This document shows, piece by piece, positions 1-63,440 of a stretch of 64,000 nucleotides of DNA. The stretch's first letter is position 1. Each line of letters opens with the position of its first letter. The position numbers were made by a program, and so were the translations under genes. The stretch is taken from NCBI GenBank assembly GCA_949152475.1, contig OX424562.1, forward strand, positions 39,480,157 to 39,544,156, in the 5' to 3' direction. Below the pieces are notes generated by a model, which was not told the origin of the DNA, made no database searches, and was given only the letters and a program-made list of their open reading frames with translations. This stretch comes from Terebella lapidaria (lineage: Eukaryota > Annelida > Polychaeta > Terebellida > Terebellidae).

Positions 1-507
1 AGTTGTATACTAAATCCATCAAGTGTATAGTAGGAACAACTACATTTAACACAATGTCTGACCCGGATGACGCCAGTACATGTATGTCTTTTGATAAACT
101 GTTTGGTCGGGTTTTGTTCTGTTGCAAAGTGTATTTTACGTTTATTATTGGAATCATCAAAATTTGGCTATATTGGTGGTGATAGATTGATACTTACATT
201 CATACCACTGAGACGTCGCTGCTGGTGAACGTTAAGTCTGTCCCCGAAGATACCATGAACTCAGTAGTCTTTTGGCTTGTGATTAGGTACTTATGAACTT
301 TTCAAATATCTATTCCATGAGATTTGTTTCGGATTTCTAAAGTATTGTCATAGGTTGGTGGGCAGTAGTATACTGAATCCATCCAGTTTACAGTAGAACA
401 ACTACATTTAACACACTGTCTGCCCCTGGTGATGCCAGTATGTCTTTTGATAAAGTATTTGGTCGGGCTTTGTTTCTATTGCAAAATGTTGTGTTTTACG
501 TTTTTTA

Positions 508-681
508 TATGAGGACTTTGTCTATCGAAGTGCCCAGCTAGTCTCTAAACTGCTACGACAAGGATATGTTTTACCAAGACTTATAGCTGCGTTTAAGAAA
601 TTCTGTGGACGTCATCATGATCTGGTTGATAAATACAGCAAATCCATGTCTGCCATGCAACTAGATCTATTTTCATGTTAA
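508..681 (+). pseudogene. Penelope-like reverse transcriptase, C-terminal 57 residues only
   Basis: An open stretch of 58 codons including the stop reads YEDFVYRSAQLV, then KLLRQGYVLPRL, then FKKFCGRHHDLVDKY. This is the conserved thumb/C-terminal block of invertebrate Penelope-like reverse transcriptases. There is no start codon and no upstream RT core, so it is a 5'-truncated copy. It begins at the same YEDF codons where the large Penelope-like element near 62.7 kb loses homology, so the two fragments are complementary in content. The following non-coding part (682-923) has a GTGGGGCAGGAAATGC block and then about 110 bp (814-923) nearly identical to 59642-59753. Confidence 0.8.
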
Positions 682-923
682 TTTTGGGGAATTCATGACG
701 GGTGCCACTAGTGGGGCAGGAAATGCTCACTCTTTCCGGAACACCTGATTTCACCTCCTAATGGCCATTTACGGGGGTTCATGAGTTTCTCTGTCATTTT
801 TGTTTTCTCTCACTTCGTATGCCTGATATGACTTTCTGTCCCCGGACTATGAGATTGGATAATGGACCCTGTTTTGTTTGGTCGGAATACTTAATACTGG
901 GTATTGATTCCACGTCTGTTATT
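682..923 (+). mobile_element. Penelope-like element 3' untranslated region
   Basis: This continues from the C-terminal coding fragment. Its second half (814-923, starting TCACTTCGTATGCCTGAT) matches 59642-59753 almost base for base. There it sits upstream of a Penelope-like ORF, as expected if these elements form head-to-tail partial copies. The junction with the A half-unit lies near 921, at the shared GTTATT. Confidence 0.7.
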
Positions 924-1331
924 GGAATCATCAAAATTTGGCTATATTGGTGGTAATAGATTGATACTCACATTCATACCACTGAGTCTGTGTCACTGCT
1001 GGTGGACCTTAAGTCTGTCCCCGAGGATACCATCAACTCAGTAGCCTTTTGGCTTGTGATTAGGTACTTATGTACTTGTCATATATCTATTCCATGGGGT
1101 TTGTTTCGGATTTCTAATTATTTTCATAGATTGTTGGGCAGTTGTATACTAATTCCATCATGTGTACAGTAGGAACAACTACATTTAACACACTGTCTGC
1201 CCCTGATGACGCCAGTGTGTCTTTTGATAAACTGTTTGGTCGGGCTTTGTTCTATTGCAAAATGTATTTTTTTTGTTATTGGAATCATCAAAATTTGGCT
1301 TTATCGGTGGTAGTATATTGATACTTATATT

Positions 1332-4300
1332 GTACAGTGCGGAAAATCAGGAGCTGGGAAATTTATAGAGTGGGATTCGATGGGCTAATTGGTCCTGGGT
1401 GTGGTGTTTGAATGAGGATTGTTATCCGGTAGCGAGTGTTAATTTTCGAACTCATATAAAAGAGTCGGTAGTATTATATTCATGATGCAGATATTATACT
1501 GTCAACTTGTTCCGAGATGGAGTCCTCTAATATACTCGACAATGATGACAATATTCTCTCCCAATATAAAATCGACAGTCAATATTATACCACGGAGGAA
1601 TTAGACAAACAACTTGCGAATAAACATCTAATCAACTATAGTGCTCTACATATTAATATTCAAGGACTTGCGAGTAGTTTTGATAAACTGATCCACTTAT
1701 TATCCAACTTGGAACAAATGTCTATCTCATTAGATTTTATATTAATTTGTGAAACTTTTGTAAAACCCAACGGAACATTTGATCCGGAACGGAGATTCCA
1801 CATTGATGGTTACAATTTTATATATAAAAATCGCACAAATTTGACAAAGGGTGGAGTAGCGTTGTACATAAAGGATATATATCAGTTTAAATATAGAGAA
1901 GATATATCTATGTTTATTGAAGGAGAATTTGAATGTCTGTTTGTTGAAATTATTAACCAACCACGCAATCTTATTGTAGGTGAAATCTATAGAATACCTA
2001 ATACATCCGAAACATTATCTTTACAGCGATATGAAGAAACTTTAAACAAAATTAGCCAAACTAAATCATGCGATACCATAATAGGTACTGACCAAAACTT
2101 CGACTACATACAAATAAACAACCATAAGACCTCTGCTGAACTTCTGGAAATGACCATAGCAAACGGATTTTTACCAATAATTACGCGGCCAACACGTATC
2201 ACACACAGCTCGGCAACGCTCATAGATAACATATACATCAAATGTGGCAACTATGGTAATTTATTTTCAGGTATTCTAACCGTTGACATGTCCGATCATC
2301 TACCGGTTATCGCTTGTACGACTAGATCCCCGAAAGCATCATCTAAACCAAATTATGTTACGTATAGACGAATCAACGACAATGATATCAATGACATAAA
2401 TACAGCTCTTAACAGCATAAACTGGAATAAATTGAATGTACTTGATGTTAACTCAGGTTATGACTACTTTATTAAAGAATTGTTGTTAATAATTAATAAG
2501 ATATCACCTGAAAAACATAAGTCAATATCACCTAAACAAACACGCAAGGAGCCCTGGATGACTAAGGGGCTCATGAAATCATCTTTTGAAATTGAGAAGC
2601 TCTTCAAGAAAACAATAAACAAAAAACCTACTGCCCCCCTAGTGGTGAAATATAAACAGAAACGTAACTTACTCAACCGACTCAAAAGGCGAACAAAAAT
2701 GATATATTATCAAGAACTTCTGAATAACTGCAAAAACGACTCCGCCAAGACCTGGAAAATTATGAGATCTATTATCAATAAAACTAACGACAAAACAAGC
2801 ATATCAGACACATTCAAGGTAAACAATGTTGATATAACGGATCCTAAAACAATAGCTGATGGTTTTAGTGATTTTTTCACCCATATAGGACCCTCATTAT
2901 CAAACAAGATACCAAAACCCTCTAAACCATTCCATCATTATTTAAAAGTTAAACAAGCGGACCCGAAATCGAGTCTCTATCTGAGCCCTACTGATGTAAA
3001 TGAAGTATCGTTGATTATATCTGAACTGAAACCTAAGCGATCATCTGGCAATGACGGTATCTCTTCCTGGCTCCTAAAACAATTGAACAAATCCATCGTT
3101 AATCCACTTGTAATTCTAATAAATAAATCTATTGAAACTGGCATATTCCCTGAATCACTAAAAACAGCAAAAGTAGTGCCTGTCTATAAATCCAAAGATA
3201 AAACTGACTTCTCTAATTATCGTCCAATATCCCTATTAGCTTCAATATCTAAAGTGTTCGAAAAAGTTATCTATAAACGTCTTTACCATTACATGACTAA
3301 GTTCTTATTTGCTAGTCAGTATGGATTTAGATCCAAGCATTCAACTATACAGGCAATTACTGAACTATGCACACACATTATCAATGCATTAGACAATAAA
3401 CAGCATACCCTGGCAACATTTCTCGATTTATCTAAAGCATTCGATACTATAGATCACAATATTCTAATTGATAAACTACGCTATTACGGCATCCGCGGTA
3501 TCCCCCTTCAATGGTTCAAAAGTTATTTGACTAATAGGAAACATTTTACCCAATATAAAGATAAAAAATCGGATCTAGAATCGGTACAATGTGGTGTTCC
3601 TCAGGGTTCAATCTTGGGACCCCTATTGTTCATTATTTATACTAACGATATGCCTAATTCCTTATCTAAAACAAATTGCATTTTATTCGCAGATGATACC
3701 ACTATCTATTCGTCTGCCCCTAATATCAATACACTTTATAAAAATACAAACACAGATCTTGCGGTGCTAACAGACTGGTTTAGGGCAAATAAGTTGTCAC
3801 TAAATGTAGGGAAAACAACCTTTATAGTTTTTGACTATAAAAGAAGTCAGCCACAAGACCACACTGAAAACATACGTATTGGTGATAATATCATTAAAAG
3901 AGAGAAATATGCAAAATTTTTAGGGTTAATTATTGATGATCAACTAAAATGGGACATTCATCTTAAACATATTAAATCAAAGTTATCGAGTGCTCAATTT
4001 GCTATAAAATCAGCCAAAAATACCCTGCAGGTAGGTCACTTAAAAACATTATATTTTTCATTATTTCAACCATATATAGAATATGGCGTTATGTTATGGG
4101 GTAACGCCGCTAAACAACTAATCAAACCATTAGAAATAATGCAAAGGAAAGTCATGAGAGCAATCTTCAGCGAAACCTACAACTCACCGGTAAATCATCT
4201 TTTTAAACAGTTGAATATACTCAAAATAGATGACCTCAAAAGATTACATACCTTGAAATTCATGTATAATCAAATTAACCATAATCTTCCCTTGAACCTA

Positions 4301-5175
4301 AATGAGATCTTTAAACCAGTAAGTTCAATCCATGGCCATGATACACGTCAGAAAAATAATCCATACTTTGACAGTAAAAACTCCTTATTATCTATCCAAT
4401 CATATTTACATATTGGTCCTAAATTATGGCAGGAATTGTCCACTGATATAGAAGAATCTAAGTCGGTTAAGTGCTTCAGCAATCGAGTCAAAAGATTACT
4501 CATCAAACAATATTGAATCATATGTTAAAACCACACCTTACTAAAGTGAATCTCACACTTCGGTGCATGTGGCGTCGTTCTGCTGCGCGGCAGCTGACCT
4601 GGCGTTCTACTTCGTCGGGCAAGGGTCTGTGACACTGTTTCAACTGGCAGGTGTGAATGAGCTCTTCCATGTTATGACTGTGTTATAATAGTGAATGTGA
4701 ACGCATGTGAACGAGCTGTACGTGAATGAGTTGTATATGAATGAGCTGTATGTTATTGTATTTGTGTATGTCTGTGTGTGTTCATCCATGTGTTCGTGGC
4801 TATGTGTAAGATCGTATGTGTTTGTCCACGTGTTCCGTGCTTAGCATAGGTTACTGTCTACGTCTATTTGTCTCGTGATACAGAGTATGATTGCATATGT
4901 GTCTACGTATTCTGTCCTTAACGTTTGAGTGTATCGGTTTAGGGTTTTTCTCCCCGTTCTTTGTCCCCCAATAAACGTCTGTCCCCCCAATTATTAAGGC
5001 ATTACAACTCCATGATTTAAGATGTGTTTAATTAATATTCAATACACTGTATAAATTACCTGGAATCACAGCCTAACGGCTCTTGTAATGTCTTGGAATC
5101 GTATCCTGTAAATATCACTGTTAATTTTGTGCCATCACATGTACGTTTCCAAATAAATTGATTGATTGATTGATC
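1332..5175 (+). mobile_element. Near full-length LINE (jockey/CR1 group)
   Basis: The element runs from the point where the A half-unit is interrupted to a (TGAT)n tail at about 5153-5175. It has a 5' leader of about 185 bp (1332-1516), one long ORF (1517-4516) and a 3' UTR of about 650 bp with T- and G-rich stretches. A short tandem-repeat tail in place of poly(A) is usual for CR1/L2-like and some jockey-like elements. No ORF1 is visible. I could not see a target duplication: the right flank does not resume the A/B repeat. The uninterrupted ORF suggests a young copy. Confidence 0.8.
1517..4516 (+). CDS. LINE endonuclease-reverse transcriptase, 999 residues, intact
   Basis: This is the retrotransposition enzyme of a non-LTR element: it nicks target DNA and copies its RNA there. 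The N-terminal APE-type endonuclease shows N47 in HINIQG, E79 in LICETF, GTDQN at 190-194 (where many families have GDFN), LIDNIY near 235-240 and SDHLPV at 259-264. The reverse transcriptase shows YRPISLL at about 567, FLDLSKAFDTIDH, GVPQGSILGP at about 693 and the catalytic FADD at about 724-727, followed by WFRANKLSLNVGKT. The C-terminal region is the long connector usual in the jockey/CR1 group. No RNase H domain is seen. The ATG at 1517 gives the complete endonuclease, so it is the likely start. No stop or frameshift interrupts it. The exact clade needs a tree. Confidence 0.93.
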   Translation: MESSNILDNDDNILSQYKIDSQYYTTEELDKQLANKHLINYSALHINIQGLASSFDKLIHLLSNLEQMSISLDFILICETFVKPNGTFDPERRFHIDGYNFIYKNRTNLTKGGVALYIKDIYQFKYREDISMFIEGEFECLFVEIINQPRNLIVGEIYRIPNTSETLSLQRYEETLNKISQTKSCDTIIGTDQNFDYIQINNHKTSAELLEMTIANGFLPIITRPTRITHSSATLIDNIYIKCGNYGNLFSGILTVDMSDHLPVIACTTRSPKASSKPNYVTYRRINDNDINDINTALNSINWNKLNVLDVNSGYDYFIKELLLIINKISPEKHKSISPKQTRKEPWMTKGLMKSSFEIEKLFKKTINKKPTAPLVVKYKQKRNLLNRLKRRTKMIYYQELLNNCKNDSAKTWKIMRSIINKTNDKTSISDTFKVNNVDITDPKTIADGFSDFFTHIGPSLSNKIPKPSKPFHHYLKVKQADPKSSLYLSPTDVNEVSLIISELKPKRSSGNDGISSWLLKQLNKSIVNPLVILINKSIETGIFPESLKTAKVVPVYKSKDKTDFSNYRPISLLASISKVFEKVIYKRLYHYMTKFLFASQYGFRSKHSTIQAITELCTHIINALDNKQHTLATFLDLSKAFDTIDHNILIDKLRYYGIRGIPLQWFKSYLTNRKHFTQYKDKKSDLESVQCGVPQGSILGPLLFIIYTNDMPNSLSKTNCILFADDTTIYSSAPNINTLYKNTNTDLAVLTDWFRANKLSLNVGKTTFIVFDYKRSQPQDHTENIRIGDNIIKREKYAKFLGLIIDDQLKWDIHLKHIKSKLSSAQFAIKSAKNTLQVGHLKTLYFSLFQPYIEYGVMLWGNAAKQLIKPLEIMQRKVMRAIFSETYNSPVNHLFKQLNILKIDDLKRLHTLKFMYNQINHNLPLNLNEIFKPVSSIHGHDTRQKNNPYFDSKNSLLSIQSYLHIGPKLWQELSTDIEESKSVKCFSNRVKRLLIKQY

Positions 5176-7177
5176 TCATCAGAGAACCTAAATTTCGAAA
5201 TTGTTTCTATTGTATATGGGGGTTTGAAGATGTGACGTGTGATTATTTGAGTGCATGGATGGGGCGCCGGGTGAAATATACATGTCATTAATAATTGTCG
5301 TTGTCGAACAAGGTGGGCCCGCCCCCTGCAGATTTATAACAGTAATATGTTTCGGAGTACATCCTTCCATTATTACGGCTTGTTAAACAATATGTGTTTA
5401 TTATTACGAGTAATAATATATGTTGCTTAACAGAAGTTGCCGCACACTATCCATTAGACCGTCAGGGTAAATAGAATATTGTTTGATCTTACGTTTCATT
5501 TTACAGGCATACATGTCATCAAATAGGTATTTGAGGAAATGAATATTATATTTTTACACATACTTTCTTTGATCTGGTAACAAAATTTGGACAATTCTTC
5601 CCAGTAAACAAAGCATTCTGACAAAACCATTCTACCAATTTGGAAGATTCTGATCATTATCCTCATGATAGATTGATATTGTACGATTACGTTTTTCTCA
5701 TGACTGAGTAATATTGTTTCTACTTTGATCACACAGTTATATAATACATACCAACTTTATTCCACTTCAGATTGAGTCATATTGCATGGTCATCTTCCTC
5801 TCATTCTCACATGACAGAGTATCATTTTACAGGCAATACTGAATCTGATATCTAACGTCCTTCCTGTCGGCAAGAGAGCGATATTTTGAACACGACAAGC
5901 ATGACAACAACAAAACCCATGGCTGAGCACAACATCCGGGTAGTATCCGTACTATTCTGTGAAACAATCTAGTTTTCACGTAGAGACTGTCGGTGACTAG
6001 ACGTTTGCTGCATCAAAGCGACTCAGATTACCATTTTTTGAAAACATGACCTCGTCGTTTTCCTAGCGAAACATAATTTTTGTTGAAAAAGTATATGAAC
6101 CCATCTTTACCTCTCCTCAGCTTCAGTTTCCATGCTACAAATTAATATTCGAGTGGATTCGAAAAATCACCTGTAATTAGTTGAATCTCTGAAACTAATA
6201 TTGTGACTGGTCAGTGAAAAAACTGAGAATCTGGCGAATATCACAAGATTTGTAAATATCGGAGAAACCACGCAAACCTTCTGAGAACTCTCAGATTATC
6301 CTCCGCAAAGGCCATTCGCAGTTCATTCATTACGTCGTGAAGCAGCACTTGAATAAAACACAAATGATTTTGACTAGCAATGTGCCATGTTTTTTCAACA
6401 CACAGGATGAGCAGTTTCCTCTCATTACAGCGCTCTCTGACGTCGAGAAACCCGCTGCAAATTAAGGTTCATTGTAATGTGGCGCGAATGTGAAAGATAT
6501 AGGTAGCGCAATATGTATTGTGGGATTACAGGCGATTCATTGTTGCCTGACACTCATCAAATTCGAGATGAGCAGTCTGACGAACAGAATTACTACGTAC
6601 CGTAGTAATTCGAACAATCTTAATTATCATTATGTTTTATCATCAATCTTTCATGAATTCAATTCAACACATTAATTTTGCTCGTAGTCCAGTCATGCCT
6701 TAAGTTACTATTACAACTCACCTGGCAGTCGAACAGTGATTTACTACAAAAATCAATATCTCTTTTTTTCCACAATCGTAATCTTCACTAATGTCAGATT
6801 TAAGTCAAAAAGTGGGATCTCGTAAGGGCCGAAATACGAAGCGGATGCACATCCAGGACCAGAAGTTCAATGATGAGGCATAAATTATCATTTGGGTAGA
6901 GATCCAACTGTTTACATTTCCTGGAAAAAAAAACGGTGAGAATTCCATGTGAAATCTGTGAAAATTTGGGATGATAGCTTACACTATAGCTGAACTACAA
7001 CTGAGAAAATAATATAGAGCAAATAGAAGCAAAAAAACACAGCTCTTCATAACCATATATAAGTTTTAACACATGTTTTCTTACCGTGTACCTGAAATCT
7101 GTCACCGTTCCAAAGACTATTGATGTCTGCAAGTAATTATCACTAAAACAACGAATATGAAGATCACCAGTGATAAT
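5176..7177. other. No gene seen
   Basis: AT-rich non-coding DNA with only short, unrecognised ORFs. I found no domain, tRNA or convincing exon. Confidence 0.6.
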
Positions 7178-52250: not shown

Positions 52251-52436
52251 TTGTTCTTGACATGCACATCATGTACTAGTATTTGAGCTTCTATGAACAT
52301 GAGGAAAGAAATGTGCACCTTGTATGTGTGTTACACATGACCGCACACACAGTCCAGGCAGTTGCCTGTAGCATGTAGCACACAAGATTCCTGTATACAA
52401 AGTATATCTGCTTGTTCTCACTTATTTAACTTATTT
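52251..52436 (+). repeat. Direct repeat of 186 bp, right copy
   Basis: Partner of 48200-48385. Its last base abuts the first A half-unit of the second Penelope-related array exactly, so the border at 52436/52437 is a real junction. Confidence 0.85.
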
Positions 52437-53333
52437 CCATCAGGTGTACAGTAGAAACAACTACATTTCCCACACTGTCTGCCCCTGATGACGCCAGTGT
52501 GTCTTTTGATAAAGTAATTGGTCGGGCTTTGTTTCTATTGCAAAATGTTGTATGTTTGTTATTGGAATCATCAAAATTTGGCTGTATTGGTGGTAATAGA
52601 TCGATACTTACATTCATACCACTGAGCCGGTATCACTGCTGGTGGACGTTAAGTCTGTCCCCGAGGATACCATTAACTCAGTAGCCTTTTGGCTTGTGAT
52701 TAGGTACTTATGTACTTGTCATATATCTATTCCATGGGGTTTGTTACGGATTTCTAAATTATTTTCGTAGGTTGTTGGGCAGTTGTATATTAATTCCATC
52801 AGGTGTACAGTAGAAACAACAACATTTACCACACTGTCTGCCCCTGATGACGCCAGTGTGTCTTTTAATAAAGTAATTGGTCAGGCTTTGTTTCTATTGC
52901 AAAAAATGTTGTATGTTCGTTATTGGAATCATCAAAATTTGGCTGAATTGGTGGTAATAGATCGATACTTACATTCATACCACTGAGCCGATGTCACTGC
53001 TGGTGGACGTTAAGTCTGTCCCCGAGGATACCATCAACTCAGTAGCCTTTTGGCTTGTGATTGGGTACTTATGTACTTGTCATATATCTATTCCATGGGG
53101 TTTGTTACGGATTTCTAAATTATTTTCGTAGGTTGTTGGGCAGTTGTATACTAATTCCATCAGGTGTACAGTAGAAACAACTACATTTACCACACTGTCT
53201 GCCCCTGATGACGCAAGTGTGTCTTTTGATAAAGTAATTGGTCGGGCTTTGTTTCTATTGTAAAATGTTGTATGTTTGTTATTGGAATCATCAAAATTTG
53301 GCTGTATTGGTGGTAATAGATCGATACTTACAT
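52437..53333 (+). repeat. A/B tandem repeat array 2, order A-B-A-B-A
   Basis: A is at 52437-52613, 52796-52974 and 53157-53333. B is at 52614-52795 and 52975-53156. The units are about 95 percent alike, more uniform than in array 1, suggesting a recent amplification. B shares words with the leader of the Penelope-like element at 59757-59822. The array starts and ends with A, and stops at GATACTTACAT, the same word at which array 1 stops. Confidence 0.88.
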
Positions 53334-57819: not shown

Positions 57820-59641
57820 TCATGCACACCAATCGATGGTACGAAAAGTTTTTGTAATAAATTTGGCACTTTCTCAGTCAAGGCACATAATACATATTTA
57901 GCAACGTATAGTTCATAAATGTCAGATAGTTTCATGAAATTTAGTGCTTTGAAGAGCGGTTCAGTGTGTGTGTTATATGGAACGTTGGACATCAATCGCA
58001 CAAGTTTTTTTTGAAGTATGGTTAGCTTTTTTAGGTGTACTGCATGAGTACCTCCCCATATAGTTATACCATAGGTGAGGTGGGGATATGCTAATGTATA
58101 GTATAAAGGAATCAAGTTCGACTTCGGTAGCATTTGTTTGGCTCTATTTAGTGCAAAGTAAGATTTTAACAACCGTTTATTTACTACCTTTGTATGCTCA
58201 TCCCACTTCAGTTTGTAATCTATATGAACTCCCACAAATTTTGTGCACTTGCATTTTTCAAGGACATGACTGGCTAATTTCAATTAAATTTATATCGTCA
58301 TTGTTATTACTGGTTGTGAAGAGCATGTAGTTTGTTTTTGTGACATTGAGTGAAAGCTTGTGTGATTTGAACCAGTCTGTCAAGTTGCCTAATTCTTCGT
58401 TCATTATAGTATCACAGGGAGGAACCGTTTGTCTGATTCTATGTGCATTTGCCTGATTCTATGGGCAAAAAGTCTGATTCTATGAGCAAATTGTCTGATT
58501 CTATGGGCAAATAAGCAAGTAAGCTGCGGGGCACCTGTAGAACATGCTGGATCGACGGCTAGTTTCTCAACACAATCTGATGGCATATGTTCTGTTTACT
58601 TCTTAAATCATTGCAGCATATGATTCATGTTCAGTTTCTTATGTGGTGTTCACCGCTCTTCATATATCTGTCGCACAAAAGTGGAACGGCTAGGCAGTGG
58701 AGCAGTTAGCCATCACAAATCACGAAACACAAAGCGCTTCCAGTTACTTACCAGGATATCTTGACCACAATTACAAGACAATTATTCCAGTTAACATTTT
58801 GATTGTTCCTGGATGTGAAGTCAGCTACGTAATCCAACAAAATTGGACATAGAATAATAATAACAGAAACAAACCTGATTCTATGGGAACAAACCTGATT
58901 CTATGGGTAGGGTGTTGTTATAGCCATGGAACTAAGAGCTTCTCGATGCTGATCCTGAATAAATATAGTATTGAAACTTGATTTTATGTTTTGTTTCTAA
59001 GGGAAGGTCAATAACATGGATGACAGATCGTAGTCCATAGTTCCATGGTTATCAAATAAACCTACCCATAGAATCAGGTTTGTTCCCATAGAATCAGGTT
59101 TGTTTCTGTTATTTTTAATCTATGATCAATTTTGTTTGGTTAGGTAGCTGATTTCACATCTAGGAACAATCAGAATGTCAACTGGACTAATTTTTGTCCA
59201 GATACCCCGGTATGTTAGTGTGAACGCTTTGCAGTTGGTGATTTATTATGGATAACTGCTCCACCACCTGGCCGTTCCACTTTTGTGCGACAAATGTATG
59301 AACAATGGTGAACACTGCATAAGAAACTGAACATAATCTATATTCTGCAATGATTTATGGAGTAAACAGAACATATGCCATCAGATTGTGTTGAGAAATT
59401 TGTCGTTGATCCAGCATGTTTTACTGGTGCCCCACCGCTTACTTGCCTATTTGCCCATAGAATCAGACAATTTTCTCATAGAATCAGACTTTTTGCCCAT
59501 AGAATCAGAATAATGCACATAGAATCAGACAAACGGTTCCTCCCTGTGAGTATATAAATGAGTCAAATTTTTGTGTGGGCAATACAGCGTGGCATCGTCT
59601 GCAAATGAAATGGAATTAGAGTGGCCTAATACATTGGGCAA
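57820..59641 (-). pseudogene. Jockey/CR1-type LINE reverse transcriptase relic, split by a transposon
   Basis: On the minus strand the part at 59641-59554 reads DLPNVLGHSNSISFADDATL, with the catalytic FADD, up to NLTHLYT. The part at 58407-57820 continues in frame IMNEELGNLTDWFKSHKLSLNVTKTNYMLF. A stop and frame change follow, then FVGVHIDYKLKWDEH, AYPHLTYGITIWGG and NTHTEPLFKALNF to a truncated C terminus. A 1,136-bp foldback element (58413-59548) interrupts it. The upstream RT core and the endonuclease are missing: at 59642 the sequence switches to Penelope-like DNA. The family is the same as the fragment at 63544-64000. Confidence 0.82.
58413..59548. mobile_element. Foldback transposon inserted in the LINE, 5-bp target duplication
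   Basis: The two arms of about 540 bp are inverted copies with roughly 90 percent identity by eye. They start CACAGGGAGGAACCG and are flanked by AGTAT (58408-58412 and 59549-59553). Each arm has several CTGATTCTATGGG words near the tip and again near the centre. Mirror-image ORFs of 60 residues in the two arms are by-products. Removing the element and one AGTAT joins the LINE reading frame exactly, which supports the borders. No transposase is seen, so it is non-autonomous. CAC ends with a 5-bp duplication are known in the Transib/RAG-like superfamily, but the rest of the tip does not match well enough for assignment. Confidence 0.9.
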
Positions 59642-59862
59642 GTCACTTCGTATGCCTGATATGACTTTCTGTCCCCGGACTATGAGATTGGATAACGGAC
59701 CCTGTTTTGTTTGCTCGGAATACTTAATACTGGGTATTGATTCCACGTCTATTACTATAACTGAGTCGGTGTCTTTGCTGGTGGATAATTATTTGTCCCC
59801 GCGGGCACCATCAGCTCAATAAACCTAGTATAGTTAGGTTTAACCTAGTATTTGAAATAACT
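59642..59862 (+). mobile_element. Upstream partial copy or leader of the Penelope-like element
   Basis: 59642-59753 nearly equals 814-923, which follows the stop codon of another Penelope-like copy. This stretch is therefore 3' UTR sequence placed upstream of the ORF, the head-to-tail arrangement (pseudo-LTR) typical of Penelope-like elements. 59757-59822 resembles the B half-unit but lacks the A sequence found in the arrays. Confidence 0.7.
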
Positions 59863-62364
59863 ATGCAGTACAAAGACAACGGAAACAAACTGGTTGGCAC
59901 GGTGCCCAGCATAAAAAGGTGCCAAAAAGCTGTGTCCAAGGGCACGGTCACAGCTTCCTCAGAAGGTGCCCCTAGACTCATCATATCAGATATTATGAAA
60001 ACATCATACGTAGTCTCTTCTGATCGTTCCCTATGGTACAACAACTCGGGTAAATTTATTAATATTAGAGATTGCAAAATCAAACTTCCAGATAAAATGA
60101 AAACAGAGGGTGATGATTGTCAATATAGTAATAATAAATGTAGAGCTAAAAACTGCAAAACTTGTGATATATTAATTACAGATTCACAGTTCACAAGTTC
60201 ACTTACTAAACGTACATATACTAGTAAAAGTTATGAAAACATCAATTGCAAGACCAGCAAAATCGTATATGGAATTGAATGCACTATATGTGGTCTCGTC
60301 TATATTGGAGAAACCAAAGGACAGCTTAACAAGAGAGTTAATGGTCATAGCTCCAACATCAATAATAATTCTAATCAACTACTTTATCAACATTTTAATC
60401 AGGATGACCATTCTATTTTGTCAATGAAAGTTCGAGTCATAGAAAAAATATACCACCATACTAATAGTCCCTCATTAAGTACACCCACCCGCAGGAAACG
60501 AGAAGAACATTGGATACGTGAACTAGGCACAGCTACACCTTATGGCTGTAACGATAATATCAGTTCAGTGGGAAACCTGACAAGCCCAGGATGCAGTTCA
60601 GTCAATGTAATGAATTTATTTACATCATTTAAACGTAGGAAACGAAGCCATGGACAACGACATTATAATCGACCATCTATTCATAATATTTCCTTTGATG
60701 GTCTACTCGAAATATCGAAACAACCACTAGGACTCCACTATGTTCGCACTAAATTATTTGCCATACCTCATGTTAAACTTAAAGAACTAGAGGACCAATG
60801 TCCTACCCACTATATCAGAAATACCAATAGTTATGAATTTCGTCTGTATTCCGTTATCATGGATATTGTTTATCATCGGCTTTATAAGCCAACACAGACT
60901 TCCGAATATATACCACCCAAACGGTCTTTTCTGAAGATAAAATTTGCCAATAAAGGTATTGATGCAATTAACATCAGTAATATATTACATCATAAGTCTG
61001 TTCAGTCCCCTGTACCATCATACTTCGATGACACGGCCGCTCCATCTATATCCTACTCATATACCAAATCTGTTGCTTCCAAGATATTCAACTACAAACA
61101 AACATTGAATGATTTGGATATTGATGATCTCTTACATAACCCACCCTCCTGCACTTGCATTAACTCTCCGTTCATACATGATCCAGTTGGGCATGTTATT
61201 TCAGGCGACCTCAATATAGTGGAGAATGAATCATTGAAAGACATTTTGTCCAAAGGTCCCAAATATAGAGAGCCCATGTCGTTTTCATGGAGATACAATT
61301 TCAAGTTAATCATGGATGCAGTTGAGGAGCATGCCAGAAAATGGACAAAGAGAGAAAAGGCAGAAACTGATTCTCTGTCAGAATGGGTCAAACAGATTAG
61401 GTCATTGGTAAACAAACGCATTAATGTTTTGTCAAAGTCAGATAGTACTAAATATAGCTCTGTCTTCAATGATCCCATGGTTACTAATAGTTTGTTTAAA
61501 CTTCAAGAAAGGTTCGTCATTGTCCCTGCAGATAAAGCTTCTAATAATGTTGTTTTTGTTTGTAAAGCATACTATATACAGTGCCTGTTTGACGAACTGG
61601 GTATTGCCAACAATACTAATTCCAATAGTACATACCAAGCCATTACCGTGCCCAAACAGGATATCTTATCAAATCATGTGTCTGTATTGCATTCGTTTGG
61701 TATTACTACCTCGTGTAAAGATTCTAATCTACCAAACTTATATTGTATCCCAAAGTTGCACAAAAATCCACATAAACAAAGATATATTTCAGGTTCAGCA
61801 TCATGTTCTACCAAAGCCCGTTCTAAAATATTAACTGTTATATTGTCTAAAATTAAACAGGGTCTCCAAAAGTACTCTGAAACCATCTATTCTAGAAGTG
61901 GTATAAACCAAATGTGGATATTGAAAAAATTCAAATCTTTATTGGAATATCTGCATGCTCACACACTTTCAAAAGTAACGTCTATCAAAACATTTGATTT
62001 CTCCACTTTGTACACAACTATACCTCATTCTGAACTGAAGTCTCAGCTTAAAGAACTAATCAATAATTCATTTTTCTCTAAAAAGGGACAACGTCGGTAC
62101 CACTATATTGTAGTTAAAATTAATACCGCTTATTTTGTTGAAGGCGACTCTGATGCCCCATACAAATATACTGAAATAGATGTGGTAAATATGGTTAATT
62201 TTCTGATTGATAATATTTTTGTTGAATTTGGTGGTCGAATATTTCAACACACTATTGGTATTCCCATGGGTACAAACTGTGCACCATTATTGGCAGACCT
62301 GTTTTTATACTCATATGAATCAGATTTTATCCAACTTTACAACGAGGAGGTTCTAAGAAACTAA
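59863..62364 (+). CDS. Naiad-type Penelope-like protein: GIY-YIG nuclease then reverse transcriptase
   Basis: This is the replication protein of a Penelope-like retroelement with permuted domains. Residues 86-101 hold a cysteine cluster (CQYSNNKCRAKNCKTC). Residues 135-220 hold a GIY-YIG nuclease (VYGIEC, LVYIGET, KRVNGH, and glutamates in REEHWIRE). In classic Penelope elements this domain follows the RT. In the Naiad clade it comes first, as here. The RT part shows VIVPADKASNNVVFV, CIPKLHKNPHKQRYI, KTFDFSTLYTTIPH (first catalytic aspartate near 711) and TIGIPMGTNCAPLLADLF (near 797). The ORF ends with TAA at 62362-62364, just before the YIDD catalytic box, which lies in another frame (62365-62720). 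The ATG at 59863 opens the frame, but the start is not otherwise fixed. Confidence 0.88.
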   Translation: MQYKDNGNKLVGTVPSIKRCQKAVSKGTVTASSEGAPRLIISDIMKTSYVVSSDRSLWYNNSGKFINIRDCKIKLPDKMKTEGDDCQYSNNKCRAKNCKTCDILITDSQFTSSLTKRTYTSKSYENINCKTSKIVYGIECTICGLVYIGETKGQLNKRVNGHSSNINNNSNQLLYQHFNQDDHSILSMKVRVIEKIYHHTNSPSLSTPTRRKREEHWIRELGTATPYGCNDNISSVGNLTSPGCSSVNVMNLFTSFKRRKRSHGQRHYNRPSIHNISFDGLLEISKQPLGLHYVRTKLFAIPHVKLKELEDQCPTHYIRNTNSYEFRLYSVIMDIVYHRLYKPTQTSEYIPPKRSFLKIKFANKGIDAINISNILHHKSVQSPVPSYFDDTAAPSISYSYTKSVASKIFNYKQTLNDLDIDDLLHNPPSCTCINSPFIHDPVGHVISGDLNIVENESLKDILSKGPKYREPMSFSWRYNFKLIMDAVEEHARKWTKREKAETDSLSEWVKQIRSLVNKRINVLSKSDSTKYSSVFNDPMVTNSLFKLQERFVIVPADKASNNVVFVCKAYYIQCLFDELGIANNTNSNSTYQAITVPKQDILSNHVSVLHSFGITTSCKDSNLPNLYCIPKLHKNPHKQRYISGSASCSTKARSKILTVILSKIKQGLQKYSETIYSRSGINQMWILKKFKSLLEYLHAHTLSKVTSIKTFDFSTLYTTIPHSELKSQLKELINNSFFSKKGQRRYHYIVVKINTAYFVEGDSDAPYKYTEIDVVNMVNFLIDNIFVEFGGRIFQHTIGIPMGTNCAPLLADLFLYSYESDFIQLYNEEVLRN

Positions 62365-62720
62365 CGTGTAATTTTAATTTCACTTTCCGATACATAGATG
62401 ATGTATTGTCGCTAAATAATCCCAAGTTTGATTATTATTTGGATGTCATATATCCTAAGGAACTTGAAATTAAGGATACTACAGACTCCGCTAATTTTTC
62501 CAACTATTCAGACCTGAGGTTGGAAATTGATGATGATTCTAACCTGTCAACTAGATTATATGACAAACGTGATGATTTCAATTTTTCCATAGTCAATTTC
62601 CCTTTTCTAAGCAGCAACATTTTCATGTCACCGGCATATGCTGTTTTTGTTTCTCAACTTATACGCTATTCCAGAGCTAGTTGCAAATATGAGGACTTTG
62701 AGGACAAATATGAGGACTAA
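62365..62720 (+). pseudogene. Penelope-like reverse transcriptase, YIDD part in a second frame
   Basis: In a frame different from the main ORF the sequence reads TCNFNFTFRYIDDVLSLNNP, then FDYYLDVIYPKELEIKDTT and, at the end, VFVSQLIRYSRASCKYEDFE. These are the catalytic box and the thumb region of the same protein, so this copy is not functional as it stands. After KYEDFEDKYED homology stops: the last 55 or so residues and the 3' UTR, present in the fragment at 508-923, are absent. The repeated word AAATATGAGGACT at the break suggests slippage or a rearrangement there. Confidence 0.82.
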
Positions 62721-62959
62721 ATTCAGTGCAATGACAAAAACATTATTATAATAGTAGTTCAACATACAGAAATTAGGCACATCTCAACTTTACTTTTAAA
62801 ACCAGTGAGGGAATAATAGAACGAGAAAAAAACATAAATGCGATGAATGGATGACGATGGTGAGGGGTTAATGGGGAGATGTTGATGGACATGAAGTGAA
62901 AAAAAAGGGACGCAGTAAGGAAGAAAACGTAATTAAGTTTGATGCTTAAGAACGTTATC
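62721..62959. other. No gene seen
   Basis: A-rich flank between the Penelope-like element and the minisatellite. Confidence 0.5.
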
Positions 62960-63440
62960 ATAGCCGAAGCTAAAGAATGAGATGATACCCATAGCTAAAG
63001 AATGAGATGATACCCGAGGCTAAAGAATGAGATGATACCCGAAACTAAAGAATGAGATGATGCCCGCTGCTAAAGAATGAGATGATACCCACAGCTAAAG
63101 AATGAGATGATACCCGAAACTAAAGAAAGAGATGATGCCCGCTGCTAAAGAATGAGATGATACCCAAAGCTAAAGAATGAGATGATACCCGAAACTAAAG
63201 AATGAGATGATGCCCGCTGCTAAAGAATGAGATGATACCCAAAAGCTAAAGAATGAGATGATACCCGAAACTAAAGAATGAGATGATGCCCGCTGCTAAA
63301 GAATGAGATAACGACGCAAAAGAAAAATGATGATACCCGATGCTAAAGAATTAGATGATACCCGATGCATAAGAAATTGATGATACCCGAAGCTAAAGAT
63401 TGATGGTACACGATGCTAAGAATGTGATGTAATACCCAAA
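62960..63440 (+). repeat. 25-bp minisatellite
   Basis: CTAAAGAATGAGATGATACC starts at 62970, 62995 and 63020 and onward, with a 25-bp period and variable last bases (CGAAA, CGCTG, CATAG). About 14 good copies run to 63310, then degenerate to about 63440. Confidence 0.9.

Follow-up and report, generated by a model that had tools for sequence, protein, structure and literature searches.

The 64,000-nucleotide stretch of Terebella lapidaria DNA analysed here (hereafter the window) very probably carries a decayed Naiad-type element, a Penelope-like retrotransposon that has recently been mobile and whose endonuclease is N-terminal. Penelope-like elements (PLEs) with an N-terminal nuclease are already known from many invertebrates, where they are called Naiads; the defining paper is that of Craig et al. 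(2021, Mol Biol Evol 38:5005). The window copy is an ordinary new example of this known kind.

A damaged copy in the window

Homology to other copies places the element at 59643..62700 on the forward strand, within 20 bases of the span 59642-62720 assigned to it in a preliminary description. Over 3060 columns it is 97.4% identical to one observed unit of 3348 bp, the reference for all our mapping, and it is similarly close to 19 copies fetched from the same genome (L002-L020; 97.3-97.6% over the first 2577 frame bases). The copy corresponds to unit positions 1-3059. Its 5' end lies within a pseudo-LTR, of which 110 bases remain (59643..59752, forward; unit 1-110 recurs at the end of full copies), and its 3' end is lost.

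A stop-to-stop frame of 867 aa at 59761-62364 can be read from a first plausible methionine, Met 35, as 59863..62364; this and the other parts of the copy lie on the forward strand. The frame contains a Cys cluster, CQYSNNKCRAKNCKTC, and a GIY-YIG endonuclease (together 60106..60606), supported by the PF01541 profile and a nuclease alignment in which the CxxC, Arg, His, Glu and Asn positions are kept. The motifs VYGIEC, LVYIGET and EEHWI, from which the nuclease had originally been recognised, are all present here, as is the cluster. A CxC motif (CTC) follows in the linker between nuclease and reverse transcriptase (RT), at 61150..61158. The first part of the RT, located by alignments and by the RVT_1 profile in the undamaged copy L004, comprises the fingers, motif A (FDFSTLYTT) and motif B (GIPMGTNCAP) and occupies 61498..62364; compared with C-terminal-nuclease elements, alignments show extra sequence inserted after motif A and before motif B (62068..62169).

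The YIDD box (62391-62402) is off-frame, as the preliminary description had it: a frameshift near 62.34 kb moves it to a second frame, 62319..62720 (133 aa). Element homology stops at 62700, and the residues beyond (EDKYED) are foreign to the element. Intact copies run 53 residues past the break, close to the loss of 55 or so first estimated. With a frameshift before YIDD and the C terminus gone, a full protein is now beyond the window copy. In the broken 867-aa frame Pfam detects GIY-YIG above cut-off (residues 168-257, E 6e-5) and reports no RT family. In L004 both profiles pass the cut-off and show the claimed order, nuclease (GIY-YIG, 168-257) ahead of RT (RVT_1, 667-884).

At 50 sites where all 19 fetched copies agree, the window copy carries a private change; 24 of these are third codon positions. 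The split of 32 nonsynonymous to 18 synonymous changes fits decay. An AlphaFold model of the window frame alone had a mean pLDDT of 31 and was set aside as unusable. Two PDB sequence searches returned one weak unrelated match and zero, respectively, and a search of viral contigs gave no relative.

Sequences around the copy

Beyond the broken end, an unrelated dispersed repeat begins (62717..62950, forward). Among 40 matches to it, 35 start exactly at query base 17, which is 62717, and 25 of these run from 17 to 250; one of the five remaining matches is the window itself. Window positions 62717-63429 comprise this repeat followed by a 25/75-bp minisatellite. Directly upstream of the Penelope copy stands an 86%-identical inverted repeat, a fold-back element (58401-58934 / 59038-59561).

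Another piece of the family, a 3' fragment truncated at its 5' end, lies at 507..921 (forward), where unit 3046-3348 is followed by unit 1-112. It adjoins a satellite of ~363 bp: window positions 200-506 are satellite-like and match tandem copies ~363 bp apart on many contigs. A 361-bp tandem repeat at 52431-53333 shares part of its sequence with 200-506, by eye. In unit coordinates the fragment at 507-921 overlaps the copy broken off at 62700 by 14 bases. This is likely a coincidence, because the fragment, which adjoins the 363-bp satellite, has a normal 3' end, and because a similar fragment occurs elsewhere (L064 8788-9109, unit 3138-3348 then 1-110).

A young family with open frames

We searched the genome (761.6 Mb, 438 contigs, the window lying on contig C8) with the window-frame protein, scoring 52 of 4942 first-look candidates, so that copy counts are a minimum. 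The search gave at least 57 matches, namely 52 near-full ones, the window copy included, and five short leader pieces. All 52 near-full matches listed span residues ≤52 to ≥857 of 867, and the nuclease is therefore ahead of the RT in each. Other copies with the same domain order, which the preliminary description had proposed to seek in this genome, are thus present in 52 of 52 listed near-full matches, and also in a second, 61%-identical family described below.

No internal stop interrupts 41 of the 52 listed near-full matches, and 19 of the 52 are held in nine arrays, their starts 3347-3348 bp apart. The 19 fetched copies are 98.9-100% identical to one another over the first 2577 frame bases (median 99.77%), and adjacent units of one array can be identical (2229/2229 bases in L005). 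Their frames measure 1033 aa in 16 cases and 1043, 970 and 984 aa in the others, and no in-frame TGA occurs in the long frames. The family is young: it has been recently amplified and is open-framed at many loci.

On contig C2 (52243616-52281798), five family copies are spaced ~7.9-9.3 kb apart, each with a single TAA; this pattern suggests that a segment with one damaged copy was duplicated in tandem. Elsewhere in the assembly, two contigs bear a mitochondrial cox1: C438 (L051) and C417 (L052). One is animal-like, with nad2, cox1 and cox2 on one strand under table 5; the other has an inserted cox1 that is ciliate-like by eye, which suggests a contaminant or symbiont in the assembly.

Two nuclease positions in one genome

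Of 37 matches to a GIY-YIG profile in the same genome we extracted 30 as loci, 17 of which have a frame with YIDD. Three families were read wholly or partly and have their nuclease behind YIDD: L054 (932 aa), L055 (1014 aa) and L057 (513 aa). Pfam recognises RVT_1 then GIY-YIG in L055, and GIY-YIG alone above cut-off in L054. These C-terminal-nuclease elements resemble the window family in having a GIY-YIG domain of the same kind, a YIDD-type RT and a single frame; they differ in that their nuclease follows the RT, in the absence of the A-B insertion and in a hammerhead-like core (L054/L056/L059, L055).

A second N-terminal-nuclease family in this genome, L069 (1038 aa) and L070, was found with a mussel-symbiont contig (L065, below) as query. 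Over 997 aligned residues L069 and L004 are 61.3% identical, with 65% within the nuclease and 69% within the RT; pS is near saturation at 0.79, against a pN of 0.25. In L069, Pfam places GIY-YIG at 172-260, above cut-off, and RVT_1 at 751-888, below its cut-off.

Four contigs with relatives came from a scan of bacterial genome assemblies. Two (L066, L068) are C-terminal-nuclease elements, and of a third (L067) only the RT was read. The fourth, L065, from a Bathymodiolus mussel-symbiont assembly, holds a 210-residue RT fragment (4911-5540; 49% identical); no nuclease was found in its 10.5 kb, and it counts as N-terminal by tree position only. All four are probably animal or other contamination of the bacterial assemblies, L065 probably from the host.

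In an RT tree restricted to own-genome families and bacterial-assembly contigs, the N-terminal-nuclease elements split from the C-terminal ones at 100/100, both with L065 (11 rows) and without it (10 rows). This value rests on few lineages, the N-terminal side consisting of two families as near-copy pairs plus the short L065; the tree is midpoint-rooted for drawing only, and its long branches, L067 foremost, call for caution. Copies with a C-terminal nuclease, named beforehand as counter-evidence to the Naiad reading, do exist in this genome, but they belong to other families, separated at 100/100 in this tree.

In four N-terminal rows from two families, the only such rows that reach the motif region, RT motifs A and B are separated by ~26 additional residues that five C-terminal rows and L067 lack. 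Their site would correspond to that of the telomerase insertion-in-fingers domain. Ahead of a common DPVGH stretch, the linker CxC reads PPSCTC in the window copy and L004 and PPSCSC in L069. None of the five C-terminal rows has a CxC ahead of the RT; L055 has one inside the nuclease. The nuclease itself (YGIECTIC...NGH...YQHF) aligns with those of the C-terminal elements, with the CCHH residues kept and the CxxC, Arg, His, Glu and Asn positions common to both groups.

Rfam detected no hammerhead in either group and was therefore uninformative, and we used a core-motif scan instead. Neither strand of the 3348-bp unit, scanned with 300 further bases, contains the core CTGANGA..GAAA, and L069 has one core-like match, in coding sequence and without a stem. 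In the four C-terminal families scanned, the picture is different: a core with a 4-pair stem II was found by script in L054/L056/L059; a core also occurs in L055, L066 and, weakly, L068, with stem II seen by eye (script pairs 0, 0 and 1, respectively).

Insertion structure and 3' ends

Copies begin at varying points of the unit, pass its start, the ORF and its end, and stop ~110 bases into the next unit. Solitary copies lying within the fetched stretch (L007, L009, L016) consist of one unit and stop ~110 bases past its end; in L002, inverted fragments precede the main copy. The family was tested for pseudo-LTRs, for tandem and inverted copies and for 5' truncation, and shows all of them.

We could read 16 3' ends: 14 from 13 of the 19 fetched loci, the other six running off the fetched stretch, plus those of the window fragment 507-921 and L064. 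Matching stops at unit 109-111 in 14 of the 16. In the remaining two, L018 and window 507-921, the first mismatch falls at 91 and 108, and BLAST extends both to 112. Among the best 40 of 1496 candidates in a wider DNA search, 14 end at unit 113-117 and 26 reach the query end; this list favours the longest matches and gives no fair distribution of 3' ends. The range 109-111 thus overstates how sharp the 3' end is.

A perfect simple repeat of ≥8 bases (units 1-6 only) was found in 0 of 23 flanks of long copies (10 5' and 13 3'); for comparison, 1.3% of 2000 window stretches hold a simple repeat of 12 or more. Longer or degenerate repeats were seen by eye at the 5' junctions of L002, L012, L014 and L018. 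Target-site duplication did not exceed chance: the longest shared string was 5-6 bases in all five copies examined, and 6 bases is the 95% point for random sequence. Folding of the RNA around the 3' end gave z values of 0.90, -2.16 and -1.81 in three windows, weak evidence for a candidate hairpin, in the second window, that starts ~15 bases downstream of the 3' end.

A probable assignment to Naiad

Pfam gives neither the window copy nor L004 the arrangement of canonical Penelope and Poseidon, in which GIY-YIG is C-terminal to the RT. Naiads are marked by a nuclease in first position, of the CCHH type, a linker CxC and an RT insertion between motifs A and B, and further by pseudo-LTR, tandem or inverted copies and 5' truncation; they are not known to carry a canonical hammerhead ribozyme. 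They also show an insertion bias for microsatellites, a tendency rather than a defining trait, and selenocysteine occurs in those of spiders and clams. The T. lapidaria family is like them in its N-terminal GIY-YIG with CCHH, its linker CxC, the extra RT segment between motifs A and B, its pseudo-LTR and tandem copies and the absence of a hammerhead core. It is unlike them in that the sampled sites are free of microsatellites and that the long frames, having no in-frame TGA, would encode no selenocysteine. Judged by sequence against these marks, the family agrees with Naiad in all structural features tested, with microsatellite targeting the one exception.

The initial call of Naiad rather than classic Penelope stands as far as the leading nuclease and the accompanying marks go; the domain order, on which that call had been built, cannot by itself separate Naiad from Chlamys. 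Both PLE/Naiad and PLE/Chlamys are listed as transposable-element classes in PMC10941475. That the family belongs to Chlamys, the other N-terminal-nuclease group, or to an undescribed branch of such elements is improbable on a comparison limited to elements from this genome and from bacterial assemblies. The CCHH-type residues, two His and the CxxC within GIY..YIG, are conserved here and align with those of the C-terminal elements. Chlamys is not known to have them, and under that definition their presence sets the family apart from Chlamys. The host is, moreover, animal-like by its mitochondrial contig, read by eye. The mussel-symbiont contig, in which we found no nuclease, has an RT fragment of 49% identity.

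A rival reading takes the order to be illusory, produced by reading a C-terminal-nuclease element across the join of head-to-tail copies. The family does form such arrays, but tandem read-through as the source of the order is refuted: a single unbroken frame spans nuclease to RT inside one unit, and the solitary copies L007, L009 and L016 consist, in the fetched stretch, of one unit with the nuclease on the 5' side. The second family shows the same order, and we consider this explanation very improbable. Domestication of such an element as a host gene would suit the mostly open long frame, but the frameshift and lost C terminus of the window copy and the at least 52 near-full matches genome-wide, with their array structure, make it scarcely credible.

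A possible route of amplification

For the Naiad-type element preferred here, we now propose the following pathway. The element is a 3348-bp unit with one frame of ~1000 residues, encoding the Cys cluster, GIY-YIG, the CxC linker, a telomerase-like RT with the A-B insertion and a thumb. By analogy with one PLE studied in vitro, we infer its activity, its RNA and its nicking. RNA would be transcribed through tandem units, and the element protein would nick chromosomal DNA via its GIY-YIG domain. Reverse transcription would then start at a preferred internal RNA site, near unit 110. New copies would in turn end there, be truncated variably at the 5' end and often consist of head-to-tail units resembling pseudo-LTRs.

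The model for this is a PLE of the green anole, PAc (Poseidon, Anolis carolinensis): in vitro its reverse transcription starts inside the RNA, genomic copies end at those sites, and its hammerhead, although present, is dispensable (PMC11167929). The T. lapidaria family shares with PAc the tandem/pLTR organisation and preferred 3' ends that fit an internal RT start, and differs in that PAc has a C-terminal nuclease and a hammerhead (same paper). The start site differs as well: it lies 111-118 bases inside the ORF in PAc and would lie ~110 bases before the first Met in our family. For canonical PLEs, pseudo-LTRs and partial tandems are described in PMC3846280. The clustered 3' ends are consistent with the internal-start rule of PAc, transposed to ~110 bases before the first Met.

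We suggest tentatively, and with considerable doubt, that this family, which has no hammerhead core or visible microsatellite targeting, lays down near-identical head-to-tail units of 3348 bp, with 3' ends within ~10 bases of each other ~110 bases upstream of the first Met, in such a way that unit length and ends are set only by an internal start of reverse transcription, perhaps guided by the hairpin ~15 bases downstream, and not by ribozyme cleavage.

Taken alone, the window copy is one more example and nothing further. The wider interest is in its setting, a single genome in which Penelope families with N-terminal and C-terminal nucleases stand side by side, the N-terminal one described here recently amplified and open-framed in many places. 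Such families offer a usable natural comparison of nuclease position, hammerhead and the start of reverse transcription.
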